The position numbers and the translations under genes are program-made. This document shows, in pieces, positions 3,935-43,418 of a stretch of DNA of 44,342 nucleotides (within the stretch, counting starts at the first letter, position 1; every line of letters starts with the position of its first letter). The notes under the pieces are model-generated. The model ran no database searches. It was given only the letters and a program-made list of their open reading frames with translations, and was not told the DNA's origin. The stretch is from Methylococcaceae bacterium (GTDB taxonomy: Bacteria; Pseudomonadota; Gammaproteobacteria; Methylococcales; Methylococcaceae): the NCBI GenBank assembly GCA_004299145.1, contig SCQD01000317.1, positions 1 to 44,342 of the forward strand. The letters run 5' to 3'.

Positions 3935-3942
3935 TGATCTTT

Positions 3943-4319
3943 GATCGTTCCCACGCTCTGCGTGGGAAAGCCGCCGCGAAGCGGAATAACTAAGGCATTC
4001 TTGAATGCAGCCCGGGACGCTCCGCGTCCCGTATTCGCTGGGAGTTTGTCGGAGTATGGCGGGACGGGGTTTGAACCCCGTCCCGAACCTTTGTATACAC
4101 CCATGCGTTTCGTCGTAAATATCGACGCCTGGGATGCAACAAACGTGGCGAACGGGGTGAATATTGGGGCGGGATAGGGTTTGAACCCCATCGCAAACGT
4201 TTGTATACACCCATGCCTTTCGTCGTAAATATGGATGCCGGAGGCTGGTAAATGGACTGACAATAACACGGGACGCGGAGCGTCCCAGGATGCATTCCCA
4301 CGCAGAGCGTGGGAACGAT
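3943..4319. repeat. Composite palindromic repeat element with inverted ends and internal 110-bp-offset direct repeats
   Basis: Left end: cgttcccacgctctgcgtgggaa (3946-3968) + cgggacgctccgcgtcccg (4013-4031). Right end: cgggacgcggagcgtccc (4269-4286) + ttcccacgcagagcgtgggaacgat (4295-4319), inverted. Core has two direct copies (about 4060-4135 and 4170-4245) each with tttgtatacacccatgc.tttcgtcgtaaatat. Confidence 0.9.
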
Positions 4320-4395
4320 GCGATCTTCGTGTCCTTCGTGGCGTACATTGAAGCGGCTGTTTTAAAGCGTACTGAGTCATTACCCAATTTTTCCT

Positions 4396-26941: not shown

Positions 26942-26952
26942 TCGTGAGGTTA

Positions 26953-27221
26953 ATCGTTCCCACGCTCTGCGTGGGAATGCAGCCCGGGACGCTCCGCGTC
27001 GCGCGACTGCTGGGGATGTTGCTTTTTGCAAGTTACCGAATGCTTAATCAAAGCCGCCGCGTCAGTCGTAGGCTACGCTTACTTTGCGGCGCTTAAAGTA
27101 CCATTCTCAGCTTGATAGTCGATTAAAACGGCAGTGAAGTACCTCGCAAAAATATCCGCCTGTGTGGATACGGGACGCAGAGCGTCCCTGGCTGCGTTCC
27201 CACGCAGAGCGTGGGAACGAT
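26953..27221. repeat. Second composite palindromic element with the same inverted ends as 3943-4319
   Basis: Left atcgttcccacgctctgcgtgggaatgcagcccgggacgctccgcgtc (26953-27000); right cgggacgcagagcgtccctggctgcgttcccacgcagagcgtgggaacgat (27171-27221), inverted; different core. Confidence 0.9.
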
Positions 27222-27270
27222 AAAACAATAAAATAGTCACCCTAATTTTCAACTTGATCAGGTGCAAACC

Positions 27271-28450: not shown

Positions 28451-29485
28451 TCAGCCGTTATTCAAACCGGCAAGTACCCGTTGCAGTGTGATCAACGCGA
28501 TGGGGCGCTTTTGCTCTTCCAGATAAGCCATCAGCTGTTCGATATAAGCGTCGAACTCCACCAGCCCCAGCGCCCGCGCCGACTCCGTCGCCAGTTTGAA
28601 CCACTCCACCGCTGATTCCAAAAAAGCGCGCAGCAGACCTTGGTTATACAACGCTTTTCTCAGTTGTTCTTCGATGGCTTCGATACTGTCCGCCGCCGTG
28701 TCGTTCCGCCAGCCGGCTGCAGCGAGCAAATAGGTGCGCTGGCCGGAACGCAGGTCGCGCGGCCAGCCCATCACGTCGTTGATCAGGCCGAACGCAACCC
28801 CCAGCCTGTTAATAAGCTCGGCGATCAAGGCATCCCATTGATTTTGCCCGGCGAGAGCGGCGACGGCCAACACCGGGGTTTGCGCAAAAGCGACTTTGCG
28901 GGCGTGGTTTTCAAACAAGGCACGAGGATAAGGTTGATCGGACAGCACTTGCGTGCGTTCTTCCAGCGTAGCGGCGGTAAATTCCAGCCAGACCCGGTCG
29001 AATCCGCGCCAGAAATCTTCCGCCTCGGGCAGCGCCCAGCGATACAGCCGGTACATTTCGGCGCAGCAGACGTTGCCGAACAACGACAAATCCTGTTCGG
29101 CCAGGCGGGGATCGTCGAGCAGATCGTCCTGGATGCGGATGAAGATATAACCCCACATCGTCGCCGCCAGGATGGCATATAGCGCCTGATCAGCATGAGC
29201 GTTTCTCTCACCCCGTCCCGCTCCCGGAGGGCGAGGGGGAATAAGGTCGCCGCGATTTTCATAACAACCTTCGCGTTTCAGGCGCAGATACAGCCAAAAC
29301 GGAATGTGCAGCAAAGGCGCTGAACGCGGGCGGGAAAAATAGGAGCGGTAACCGGTATCCGGTTCGCTGACCTTGTCCAAAAAACGCCGTGCCAGCGCGG
29401 CGAGCGAATCCGGCAGTTCGGCAAGCCGCTGCTCCATGATGTCCCAGGCGGCGCCGATTGCGGCATCCAGGGTCAAATCAGGCAT
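28451..29485 (-). CDS. Class I isoprenoid synthase-like protein (trans-IPPS/terpene synthase fold)
   Basis: [11 protein letters not shown] (Asp-rich motif) and [21 protein letters not shown] (second metal-binding-like motif); start overlaps the stop of the upstream hybrid kinase gene. Confidence 0.6.
29194..29268. repeat. 75-bp dispersed repeat inserted in-frame in the isoprenoid-synthase-like gene (copy A)
   Basis: Gapless alignment to 42504-42578 with 57/75 identical by hand count; contains ctcacccc(g)...cggaggg(c)gaggggg; encodes [23 protein letters not shown] on the minus strand. Confidence 0.85.
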
Positions 29486-32400
29486 CTGACCTGATTCCTG
29501 CCAGCCGCTTTGGCGGCATAAAGCGCTTTATCGGCCATATCGGTCAGCATTTGCTCGGTCATTTGCTCGGTGGGCACGATGGAGGCGACGCCTATGCTCA
29601 AAGTGACGCAGTCCGATATGGATGAGTTGCGGTGCGGAATATTCAATTTTTCGACGTTCAGGCGCATGGTTTCAGCCAGCGACTTGGCGGATTCCAAATG
29701 TGTGTCCGGTAGTAACACGACAAATTCCTCGCCGCCGTAACGGGCGACAAAATCCGGGGATCGTTTGATGGTTTTGCCGAGCACGCCGGCTATGTTGATC
29801 AAACACTCGTCGCCCGCCAAGTGTCCGTATGAGTCGTTGTATTTTTTAAAGTCGTCGATATCGACAAATAATAACGACAGCGGTGCGTGATTACGCAGTT
29901 CCCGACTCCATTCCAAAGCCAACATTTCGTCGAATCTGCGGCGATTGGGAATGCCGGTAAGGCCGTCCAGGCAGGCGATTTTTTCCAGCAAATCGCTTTT
30001 ACGCTTGAGTTCCAAATGGGTTTTTATGCGCGCCTGCACCACAGGCAGGTTGAACGGTTTGGTGATGTAATCCACCGCGCCCAGCGACAAGCCATCCAAT
30101 TCGTCCTTGGCATCCACTCTGCCGGTAATAAATATGACCGGGATATTATGGGTGTTTACATTGGCTTTAAGTTTTTTGCATACCGTGTAGCCGTCCATTT
30201 CAGGCATGCCGATATCCAATAGAATCAAATCCGGCAAATCGCTGGCGGCGGCCAGCTCCAGGGCGCTACGGCCATTAATGGCGACGATGATTTCGTAGCT
30301 TTGTTTCAGCGTTTCCGCCAGCACTTTGATATTGGTCGGCTGATCGTCGACGATGAGTATTTTTTGCCGTGTTTTCTGGCTGGGCGGCGTTTCAACCTCG
30401 ATGAGTTCCCCCTGGGGCAGCAGCATGGCCAGGGCGGATGGGTAATCCAGTTTCTTTATCGCCCCTTCAAGCTGGACCATTTCATCGCTGGACAGTTTGT
30501 CGGCGAATTCAGGACGGAGCTTGTCGAAATAGGGTTCGACATCGATCCGTCCTTCCTTCAGCAGCAGAATAAAATGTTGTAGTGAAGGCTTGGCAGTCAA
30601 ATGATCGGCAGGTACAAGAGCGGCATTTGCCATCTCAGGCCGCTGGTGCATGGGCGGAATTTTTTTGATCGAGTCGATCACGCGTTTAAGGGCCTGCTCA
30701 CAATCCGCCAACAGGGTGTGCACGTCGTTGCGTTGGCCGATAATCGCCGCTTCCAGCGCTTTGGCCGCATCAAACACGGAAGTGATGGCCAGATTGCCGG
30801 CGACGCCTTTTAAGCCATGGGTTAATTGCTGGGCGGCAGACGCATCCCCCGCCAAAAGCAAGCTATGGGCTTTGGCCGGCATCCCTGCAAAATCCTCGGA
30901 AAATTGACTCAGCAATTCACGATAAATTTGGCCATTGCCGGCAACGTTTTTGATGCCCTGTTGGACGTCGACGTCGACCAGCACGTCCTGCCAATCGTCG
31001 GCGTCCAGGGTTTCCTGTAAAGGTTTCAGGCTCTGCGTTTTGCAGATTCCCGCTGGGTCGATGTATTGCACCAGAACGTCCAACAGCTTATCGATGTTGA
31101 TCGGTTTGGTCACGTAGTCGTTCATGCCCGCCTGCAGGCATTTGTCCCTGATGCCGGACATGGCGTGCGCCGTCAGTGCAATGATGGGCAGATGCTGGTA
31201 GCGAAGGTCGGAACGAATAATGCCGCAAGCTTCGTAGCCATCCATTTCCGGCATTTGCAAATCCATGAGTACCGCATCGAATGGCGAATTTTTGATTTGC
31301 GAAATAGCGTCCGGACCGCTGCCGGCCAAACAGACGTCAAACCCTTCGGATTCCAGCATTTCCTTGGCAACCACCCGGTTGGCAAGGTAGTCGTCCACGA
31401 CCAGCACTTTGGCGCCGCGAATACTGTCCAGATTATTTTGGGCCTGGGCACCGGCGCTGGTTTTGCTGATCTCCCCCGTGCCGGGCAGCGCAACCCCCAG
31501 GGTTTTGGCGATGGTTTCGAACAGGACCGACGGGTTGATCGGCTTGACGAGCAGACCGTCCAAATCGAAGCCGTTCACATAATTCATGATTTCGTCCTTG
31601 TTATAGGCCGTCACCATGATGATGGTGGGAATGGATTTGATCACGGGACTGCTTTTGATGCGCCTGGCCGCCTCGATACCGTTCATGCCCGGCATTTTCC
31701 AATCCATCAACACCAGTGCGAAAGGCGAATCGGCGTCCTGGTTTTCCAGAATTTGTATCGCCTGGTCTCCCGAGTGAGCGATGGCTACGTCAAATGCAAA
31801 AGACTCCAGGTAAGTTTGCAGAATTTCCAGCGAAGTCGCATTGTCGTCGACCACGAGAATTCTGGTGCCGCTATACGCCTCGAAAATGCCCTGATGCCTT
31901 TTGCTGAATTCATTGGCCAGCCCCAGCCGGCAAGTAAAGCTGAAATTACTGCCCTTGTTGAGCTCGCTCTGCACGGTGATGGCTCCGCCCATCATTTCGA
32001 CCAGACGCTTGCAGATCGCCAAGCCCAAGCCCGTGCCGCCGTATTTTCGCGTCGTGGAGATATCCGCCTGACTGAACGCGACAAACAGCTTGTCGATTTG
32101 CGCGGCATCCAGCCCGATGCCGCTGTCGATCACCGAAAACTTAAGCGTCACGCTTTCCAGCAGGTTTACCGAGGTTTCGTCGGGCCGGCATTCGATTTTG
32201 ACCAGAATCTCGCCGGAGTCGGTAAATTTGATGGCATTATTGACCAGGTTAAGCAGTACCTGACCCAGCCGCAACGAATCGCCGCGCAGATACATCGGGA
32301 CATCGGGCGCGATCGAGTAATTCAGGTCCAAGCCTTTTTCGTCGGCTTTTATGCAGGTTATCGTCGATATATTGTCCAGGACTTCTTCGAGGTTAAAATC

Positions 32401-40860: not shown

Positions 40861-41388
40861 ATGACGGCGTTATATAAACCAAGGTGGCAAAGAGGGTGTT
40901 GGCTGCTGACTATGGCATTGCTGGCGGGCTGTGCCGGCACCGCCACCGTACGGCATGAACCTGTCGGCGTCGTACGAGCGACGCCGCCATCGCCGCCGGC
41001 CCAGGTGGGCGTGGTTACCCAGCCCTTGCCGGAACGCAGCGGCGAACGCCTGGTTGTGCCGGCCATGCCGGCTGCGGTGGTGGCGCTGCTGGATGAAGTG
41101 GAAACGGCGCAGCAGGCGGGCCAGTGGGAGGAGGCCGCCGCCACGCTGGAACGGGCGCTACGGGTACAGCCCAACAACGCCTGGCTGTGGCAGCGCTACG
41201 CCGAACTGCGCCTGCAGCAGGATAAGCCGCAACTGGCTTTGGATTTGGCGCTGAAATCCAAACTGTTGGCGGGCAGCGACCGCGCTTTGCTGCAAAGAAA
41301 CTGGACGTTGATCGCCGCCGCCAAGCGCCGCCTGGGCGATGTGGCCGGGGCCGAGGCTGCGGAAAAACAAGCGGGCGGGCTGCCTTGA
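40861..41388 (+). CDS. TPR-containing lipoprotein
   Basis: Lipobox MALLAGC; TPR-like AQQAGQWEEAAATLERALRVQPNNAWLWQRYAELRLQQDKPQLALDLALKS; overlaps the helicase start. Confidence 0.75.
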   Translation: MTALYKPRWQRGCWLLTMALLAGCAGTATVRHEPVGVVRATPPSPPAQVGVVTQPLPERSGERLVVPAMPAAVVALLDEVETAQQAGQWEEAAATLERALRVQPNNAWLWQRYAELRLQQDKPQLALDLALKSKLLAGSDRALLQRNWTLIAAAKRRLGDVAGAEAAEKQAGGLP

Positions 41389-43418
41389 GCAAACTGGACG
41401 CTGTTTTTTCCGTCGGCGGTGCTTTGGCCGCCAAGCTGGACGGCTATGCGCCGCGCATCCAGCAGCAGGAACTGGCCCAGGCCGTCGGCGACGCCATAGC
41501 ACAACGCCAGGTGTTGGTGGCGGAGGCGGGCACCGGCACCGGCAAGACGTTGGCTTATTTGATACCGGCGGTCATGTCCGGCCAGCGGGTGGTGGTGTCG
41601 ACCGGCACCAAAAACCTGCAAGACCAGTTGTTCCAAAAAGACATTCCTTTACTGCGCCGCGCCCTCAACCTTCCGTTCAAAGCCGCATTGCTGAAAGGCC
41701 GGGCCAATTATTTGTGCCTGCACCGCTTGAACGTCTCGGAGGGCTACGAGTTGCACGGCTCGCGTTCCGATCTGGCGGACTATCAAATCATCCGTTCCTG
41801 GGCGGGCCGCACCCGTAGCGGCGATATCGCCGAAGTCAGCGGCGTGGCGGAAAAAGCCATGGTGTGGATGAGCGTGACTTCCACCGCCGACAACTGCCTG
41901 GGCCAGGAATGCCCGGAACTCGAGCAGTGCTTTTTGCTGAAAGCGCGCCGCCAGGCCCAGGAAGCCCGCGTGGTGGTCATCAACCATCACCTGTTATGCG
42001 CCGAATGGCGATTGCGCCAGACCGGGTTTGGCGAGTTGTTGTCCGGCGGCGATGCCGTCATCGTCGACGAAGCACATCAGTTGGCGGAAACCGCCAGCCA
42101 GTTTTTGGGGCTAAGCGTCACCGGCCGGCGCCTGGTGGAACTGGCGCGCGACACGTTGCTGGAGCAACGCAGCAACGCCGGCGACATGGGCGATTTGCAG
42201 ATCGCGGCCGAACAACTGGAGCACTGGGTGCGCGAATTGCGCCCTGCGTTTGGTCAGGAACTACGGCGTGGCTCGTGGTCGGAACTGGAAAGCAACCAGC
42301 CTTTGCTGAATGGCCTGGCCGGCTTGCTGGAGCGGCTGGAAGCCTTGGGCGCGGTGTTGCACACGGCGGCGGAGCGCAGCAAGGGCTTGGAGTCTTGCTG
42401 GAATCGCTGTGAAGAATTGCAGGAAAATCTGCAAATCCTGTTGCACGACGACGACAACGATCCTGGCGCGCATGCCGTCCCTGATATTGAACGTCACACG
42501 CGCCATGATCGTTCCCCTCACCCCGGCCCTCTTCCCGAGGGAGAGGGGGAGCAAGCTCGCCGCAGTTCTTATGGTAACTGGGTGCGCTGGTTCGAAACCT
42601 ATCCCAAGAGCTTTGCCCTGCACCGCACGCCGCTGGAAATCGCCGCGCAGTTCCGCGAATTCATGCAAGCCTTTGGCGGCGCCTGGGTGTTTACCTCGGC
42701 CACCCTCAGCGTGGCGCAGCGTTTCGAGCACTTTACCGCCAGCCTGGGGTTGCAGGAAGCCGCCACCCAGCGCTGGGAAAGCCCGTTCGACTATCCCAAT
42801 CAGGCATTGCTCTACCAGCCGCCCGGCCTGCCGGACACCTCGCATCCCGACTACACCTACGCCGTGGTACAGGCGGCCTTGCCGGTGCTGCAAGCCAGCC
42901 GTGGCAGGGCGTTCATGCTGTTCACCAGCTATCAGGCGCTGCGTGACGCCGCGTCCTTGCTGGAAGGGCAGCTGCCTTATCCTTTGTATATCCAGGGTAC
43001 CCAGCCCAAGGGCGTGTTGCTGGAACGCTTTCAGCGCGACGGCAACGCCATATTGCTGGCCACCGCCAGTTTCTGGGAAGGCGTGGACGTGCGCGGCGAA
43101 GCGCTGTCCTGCGTCATCATCGACAAACTGCCGTTTGCCGCGCCGTCCGACCCGGTGTTGAAAGCCCGCATCGACGCGCTCAAGCGGCGCGGCGTGGAGC
43201 CCTTCGTCGCTTTGCAACTGCCCCAGGCCGTGATTGCGCTGAAACAAGGCGCGGGCCGCTTGATACGCGACGTCAACGACAGAGGGGTGTTGATGCTGTG
43301 CGATCCGCGCCTCAAAACCAAATCTTACGGGCGCGTGTTTCTCAACAGCCTGCCGCCGATGCCGGTGACGCAGCGGTTGGAGACGGTGCAAGCGTTTTTT
43401 GCGGAAAAATCGACCTGA
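41385..43418 (+). CDS. ATP-dependent DNA helicase, YoaA/DinG family
   Basis: Walker A EAGTGTGKTLAYLIP; Fe-S-type cysteines CLHRL...CLGQECPELEQC; VIDEAHQL; ATASFWEGVDVRG; QGAGRLIR. TTG start. Confidence 0.95.
   Translation: MSKLDAVFSVGGALAAKLDGYAPRIQQQELAQAVGDAIAQRQVLVAEAGTGTGKTLAYLIPAVMSGQRVVVSTGTKNLQDQLFQKDIPLLRRALNLPFKAALLKGRANYLCLHRLNVSEGYELHGSRSDLADYQIIRSWAGRTRSGDIAEVSGVAEKAMVWMSVTSTADNCLGQECPELEQCFLLKARRQAQEARVVVINHHLLCAEWRLRQTGFGELLSGGDAVIVDEAHQLAETASQFLGLSVTGRRLVELARDTLLEQRSNAGDMGDLQIAAEQLEHWVRELRPAFGQELRRGSWSELESNQPLLNGLAGLLERLEALGAVLHTAAERSKGLESCWNRCEELQENLQILLHDDDNDPGAHAVPDIERHTRHDRSPHPGPLPEGEGEQARRSSYGNWVRWFETYPKSFALHRTPLEIAAQFREFMQAFGGAWVFTSATLSVAQRFEHFTASLGLQEAATQRWESPFDYPNQALLYQPPGLPDTSHPDYTYAVVQAALPVLQASRGRAFMLFTSYQALRDAASLLEGQLPYPLYIQGTQPKGVLLERFQRDGNAILLATASFWEGVDVRGEALSCVIIDKLPFAAPSDPVLKARIDALKRRGVEPFVALQLPQAVIALKQGAGRLIRDVNDRGVLMLCDPRLKTKSYGRVFLNSLPPMPVTQRLETVQAFFAEKST
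42504..42578. repeat. 75-bp dispersed repeat inserted in-frame in the helicase gene (copy B)
   Basis: Encodes [25 protein letters not shown]; gapless match to 29194-29268 (57/75). Confidence 0.9.

Follow-up and report, generated by a model that had tools for sequence, protein, structure and literature searches.

The window, that is, the 44,342-nucleotide stretch of DNA which was analysed (contig SCQD01000317.1 of the Methylococcaceae assembly GCA_004299145.1), carries a yoaA gene with a palindromic repeat inserted in frame. The open reading frame of 677 amino acids is named YoaA by NCBIfam NF053712 (861 bits, cut-off 680), its closest solved relative is DinG of E. coli (6fwr), and it is the sole full-length YoaA match in the genome. 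This genome has two pmoA genes (PF02461), and the host is therefore a methanotroph. The features of the locus are as follows.

41385–43418, + strand: yoaA, DNA repair helicase, 677 aa with the insert and 638 aa without it (NCBIfam NF053712)
42456–42578, + strand: full-length palindromic element, copy B, 123 bp, AACGATCC...TATGGTAAC; covariance-model match of 126 bits; alignment of 20 genomic copies
42456–42513, + strand: left module, 58-bp palindrome AACGATC..(loop)..GATCGTT; in RNAalifold columns 1–15 pair with 45–61, with several compensatory changes
42459–42575, + strand: net inserted DNA, 117 bp, codons 359–397; empty in 28 of 28 aligned homologues
42514–42550, + strand: right-module hairpin CCCCTCACCCCGGCCCTCTTCCCGAGGGAGAGGGGGA of the CCCTC…GAGGG type (RNAalifold)
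42551–42578, + strand: right tail GCAAGCTCGCCGCAGTTCTTATGGTAAC with a small terminal hairpin, conserved (copy alignment, RNAalifold)

The original prediction placed a repeat peptide at 42504–42578, preceded by an acidic linker. This peptide is indeed encoded at that place in the YoaA reading frame, and the presence of a repeat in yoaA is borne out. The span, however, has to be corrected, as the alignment of 20 genomic copies (A1) shows that the 123 bp of copy B begin already at 42456. About half of the supposed acidic linker LLHDDDNDPGAHAV is already part of the element, and the host contributes LLHDDD(N) only.

By aligning 29 YoaA proteins from the order (this one and 28 homologues) we found that residues 359–397 are absent from all 28 others and that there is otherwise no change in length nearby. 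The orthologue from the same genus (83% identity) differs by exactly 39 residues and reads HDEDSE-WVRWFET, compared with HDDDN-(39)-N-WVRWFET here. The homologues fix the size of the insert. A target duplication would amount to at most about 3 bp between empty and filled sites (AAC/AAC or AAC/AAT), and none is clear. As AAC flanks both sides, the boundary of the insert is ambiguous by about 3 bp. An AlphaFold2 model computed from the 29 proteins, an alignment which has no depth at the insert, reaches a mean pLDDT of 83.8; residues 358–397, between helix 333–353 and strand 399–406, lie below 50, and the remainder is mostly above 80. A low pLDDT is to be expected here anyway because this stretch has no aligned relatives. 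Thus the model supports, without proving, a disordered loop at 358–397. We predict that the insert forms a 39-residue hydrophilic loop rich in Pro, Gly, Glu and Arg in the linker ahead of the strand starting with WVRWFET. The empty sites of the relatives and the low-confidence loop of the model support the earlier proposal that a mobile element has been put into a linker.

The consensus unit of the extended copy alignment is 123 bp long and comprises a AACGATCATGGCGCG...CGCGCCATGATCGTT-type palindrome, a CCCTCACCCCGGCCCTCTCCC AGA GGGAGAGGG hairpin and a AACAAGGTCGCCGCGACTTTCATGGCAAC tail. Both hairpins of the element are backed by RNAalifold with several compensatory changes in the alignment of the genomic copies. 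Terminal inverted repeats spanning the whole element are not evident in the alignment of the copies from its own genome; the left module is itself palindromic. The right module is also found standing alone elsewhere in the genome. A search of Rfam gave no family above its gathering score, the best match being mir-598 with 18 bits against a cut-off of 69. In several composite copies (L095, L101, L102, L023, L029, L098, L099, and L103) the right-module hairpin holds nested repeats, for example, ATGCCGGACTGTCCTGTCCGGCACCCTGCGGGCAAGTGC or CCCAGGAACCTGCGGTT..., and the TrmB reading frame with copy L102 seems to contain more than one insertion.

A second copy in the window, copy A, is a right module only.

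29194–29268, + strand: copy A, right module only (consensus positions 49–123), antisense-read as a 23-residue peptide
28454–29527, − strand: open reading frame holding copy A, 358 aa, without Pfam or NCBIfam family

Copy A is thus read antisense in a minus-strand frame, and copy B has the opposite orientation, as predicted. A homologue of the reading frame holding copy A, which could have provided an empty site for this copy, was sought in 10 relatives and none was found.

The repeat is abundant in its own genome. Within the window it exceeds chance, as shuffles of the window give an expectation of 0 matches. With a query of 90 bp around the peptide region of copy B, blast of the genome returned 41 matches. 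The covariance model has 149 matches at E ≤ 0.01, the weaker of which include overlapping and opposite-strand ones, and roughly 50 exceed 58 bits; this census is drawn from genome stretches and is bounded by the scoring limits of the search tools. Scores in a genome of the same genus (G001) are at most 64 bits. When 61 related genomes were searched with the element peptide (E ≤ 0.01), matches were found in 16 with a patchy distribution, and at most 18 matches occur in any other genome compared with 74 in the own genome. Right-module peptides lie within long open frames of the genomes G001, G014, G018, and G012, for example, frames of 958 aa (G001:C1:3158670), 896 aa (G001:C1:3695206), and 535 aa (G014:C1:4014737). 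In-gene copies are thus probably spread across the family.

Within the methanotroph genome at least 10 copies lie in frame in recognisable genes and are bounded by coding sequence at either end. According to Pfam and NCBIfam matches, the hosts encode a PgaB deacetylase, two RND transporters, an Rpn-family nuclease, an NtrY-like kinase, PBP1C, PanC, RecD, a HvfB-type maturase, TrmB, a GH94 enzyme, and a molybdopterin oxidoreductase. A DedA protein and an ExbB/TolQ-type protein each have an in-frame copy close to the C-terminus. In the genic copies examined, homology extends over both flanks in the same reading frame. Comparison with empty sites shows a gain of exactly 39 codons in yoaA, an acrB-like gene (two relatives), and pgaB, and of 38–40 codons with small adjoining indels in the gene of the NtrY-like kinase, panC, and pbpC. 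The gain of recD is 47 codons relative to its relatives, and that of the molybdopterin oxidoreductase, which carries a right-module-only copy, is 17 codons relative to three relatives. The insert-bearing panC is the sole panC of the genome. Two loci deserve separate mention. In the GH94 reading frame (L104, contig C347) two tandem right modules are visible by eye with CGACGGAAC repeated between them; nothing else hints at a longer target duplication. At L012:342-1589 (contig C225) an antisense element lies directly upstream of anmK, and the start codon of anmK apparently comes from the CCATGATCGTT of the element (ATG ATC GTT GAA CAC TAC GTC GGC..., by eye in the translation).

A typical full-length 123-bp copy has four of its six frames free of stop codons, two per strand. 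Coding status was set by hand from open reading frames, Pfam or domain matches and relatives, prior to the count of frames. All nine full-length coding copies are read in the hydrophilic frames, six sense and three antisense (50% expected, P = 0.002). Over all coding copies, including the right-only, composite, and C-terminal ones, 17 of 19 are read in one of the two hydrophilic frames, whereas the openness of the right modules as a whole would predict 34% (P = 1.0e-6). Only L092 and L104 depart from this pattern. The used frames, one per strand, have a consensus GRAVY of −1.76 and −1.31, compared with +0.37 and +0.59 for the two open frames which full-length copies in conserved genes leave unused. 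This disuse indicates that filtering takes place at the protein level after insertion. As about 11 of the coding copies are sense and 6 antisense, the original prediction was right that both strands of the element tolerate translation. In the sense-frame coding copies the substitutions by codon position number 15/24/30, a lean toward the third position with a chi-square of about P = 0.08, and there may be weak constraint on the inserted peptide.

Starting from the observed insertion, copy number, in-frame position and frame bias, we suggest that copy B very probably arose when a non-autonomous REP/MITE-like palindromic element inserted here, and that random insertion and survivorship have left a neutral or mildly harmful loop. 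Such an element would spread through the methanotroph genome by means of an enzyme supplied in trans, probably with broadly random or weakly targeted insertion. A gene hit by such an insertion retains its frame, since the gain of 117 bp is a multiple of three and the GC-rich palindromes leave few stops. Gene-breaking copies would be removed by natural selection. Judging from the use of the frames, the survivors would be the intergenic copies and those genic copies which are read in the two hydrophilic frames. To YoaA itself the loop most likely makes no difference or does slight harm, and brings no new function.

The original prediction had offered two readings, a mobile element under selection to keep at least one open frame in each direction, or the survival of linker insertions only. 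Our results favour the latter, as conserved genes use hydrophilic frames only among the full-length copies. Under the former reading, genic insertion is tolerated and genic as well as intergenic sites become usable, because the element itself has been selected for one open frame per strand. That both used frames are hydrophilic and fall one on each strand would suit this reading, and the coding 123-bp copies do have slightly more open frames than dinucleotide shuffles (mean 3.67 versus 2.87, with 3% of shuffles reaching 3.67). This excess, however, is expected from survivorship, and it is not a property of the whole family: the non-coding copies of the 123 class are not significantly above shuffles (15%), and the abundant siblings of 124–129 bp are below them (seven non-coding copies with a mean of 1.57 open frames versus 3.42). 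In the latter a change in the loop breaks the frame, and no such copy was seen within a conserved gene. In addition, the two hydrophobic frames are open too, which would be needless under such selection. We therefore regard selection for one open frame per strand as disfavoured and rather unlikely. Selection on the element to keep its frames open is possible and unneeded, because only the coding copies exceed the shuffles, as survivorship predicts. A narrower version, also unlikely, is that the 123-bp subfamily is a selfish repeat selected for a harmless hydrophilic reading from either strand and thereby fit for essential genes and intergenic sites. If true, it would constitute a dual-strand, protein-compatible insertion module and a general bacterial route to new disordered loops.

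The other explanations concern the peptide or the assembly. It is very unlikely that the peptide has been adopted by YoaA for a useful role, for example, as a flexible contact loop. The reading frame is intact, the insert lies in a conserved and otherwise length-invariant linker, and third-position substitutions are slightly enriched in the sense-frame copies; nevertheless this bias is not significant, no homologue shares the peptide and the same peptide occurs in the unrelated RecD, PanC, PBP1C, PgaB, and RND pumps. The fragmentation of the assembly into 353 contigs might raise the suspicion that reads were falsely joined at a repeat. Such a join would unite unrelated sequences, but in yoaA and at least nine further genes the two flanks are parts of a single gene, read in the same frame, which makes an artefact highly improbable. 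The idea that the stretch is ancestral YoaA sequence could appeal to the clean reading frame, but homologous helicases would then share the peptide at this site, and it is found in none of the 28, the same-genus genome included. Given in addition that roughly 50 strong copies of this repeat exist in the genome, the chance of an ancestral origin is negligible and the idea is refuted within the order sampled.

The insertion-and-survivorship reading has its closest counterpart in the Rickettsia palindromic elements (Ogata et al. 2000, 2002), which are reviewed as palindromic repeats of 105–150 bp, both intergenic and in frame in unrelated conserved genes, adding about 30–50 residues to proteins which apparently survive, and for which no transposase is known (PMC2229807, PMC10969869). 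The present element is likewise palindromic, with 123 bp, two hairpins and roughly 50 strong copies, and several unrelated conserved genes whose homologues are empty carry it in frame. It differs in being GC-rich and two-module, in having a gammaproteobacterial methanotroph as host and in its coding copies in both orientations, one hydrophilic frame each. By description, it works like a Rickettsia element. The NEMIS/Correia repeats of Neisseria occur in an open 107-bp form in genes and in a stop-rich form of 155 bp that is nearly confined to intergenic DNA (PMC2229807). Length variants which differ in location are a parallel to our 123- and 124-bp forms, but NEMIS has terminal inverted repeats of 24 bp, TA ends, and a target duplication, none of which is evident here. 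The ERIC/RU repeats of enterobacteria are also small and palindromic with open frames fused into some genes (PMC2759123, PMC2229807), but differ in sequence, size, and taxon, and their reported terminal inverted repeats and target duplication are not evident in our element. Finally, short palindromic hairpins with modular and nested copies are reminiscent of REP/BIME moved by RAYT (PMC3733652). A GTAG/CGTC tag beside the palindrome was not found in the copy alignment, where the element starts with AACGATC. A link to RAYT was considered and rejected: the genome has three Y1_Tnp loci, and none is flanked by a convincing element match. No parent transposon or mobilising enzyme came to light in the analysis.

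Related elements with the same GCCATGATCGTTYCCCTCACCCC junction are numerous in one Sulfuricella MAG and also occur in Gallionellaceae. They share the two-module layout, a AACGATCATGG palindrome followed by a CCCTCACCCC hairpin, but stem, loop, and tail differ. The betaproteobacterial sample comprises 33 loci from Sulfuricella, Gallionellaceae, and Sideroxydans MAGs (L134–L166), most of them outside conserved reading frames; the copies start with (T)AACG and often end with CGTTA. Of 10 reading frames tested, five had Pfam matches, always to one side of the element, and none had the element between Pfam domains. A T precedes AACGATC in 23 of 30 cases and a C stands one base further out in 24 of 30, which suggests a CT^AA target preference. 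Literature searches, which covered few subscription journals, gave, among the matches listed, neither a published description of this element family by peptide or short DNA strings nor any link between Methylomonas-type methanotrophs and REP repeats.

Palindromic repeats lying in frame within conserved genes are already known as a curiosity best documented in Rickettsia, and a 2024 review considered it conceivable that such insertions occurred in other prokaryotes too (PMC10969869). Here a free-living methanotroph has them in at least 10 two-sided genes, with empty sites in relatives, and they follow a measurable rule: among the open frames only the hydrophilic ones persist. This pattern, on both strands and confined to hydrophilic frames, is in our view the most interesting feature. 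As one defined peptide is found in many known enzymes, the system allows a direct test of protein tolerance and of repeats seeding disordered loops. It is also a warning for annotation, as peptides of the SPHPGPLPEGEG type derive from repeats and are not domains. The window contains a further palindromic repeat (ATCGTTCCCACGCTCTGCGTGGGAA...CCCGGGACGCTCCGCGTCCC) in several copies at 3940–4320 and 26950–27225. At 26950–27224 its inverted arms of 54 nt are 91% complementary, and within the same repeat-rich region as 3940–4320, at 4058–4239, two 72-bp copies (GGCGGGACGGGGTTTGAACCCCGTCCC...) are 88% identical and 110 bp apart.
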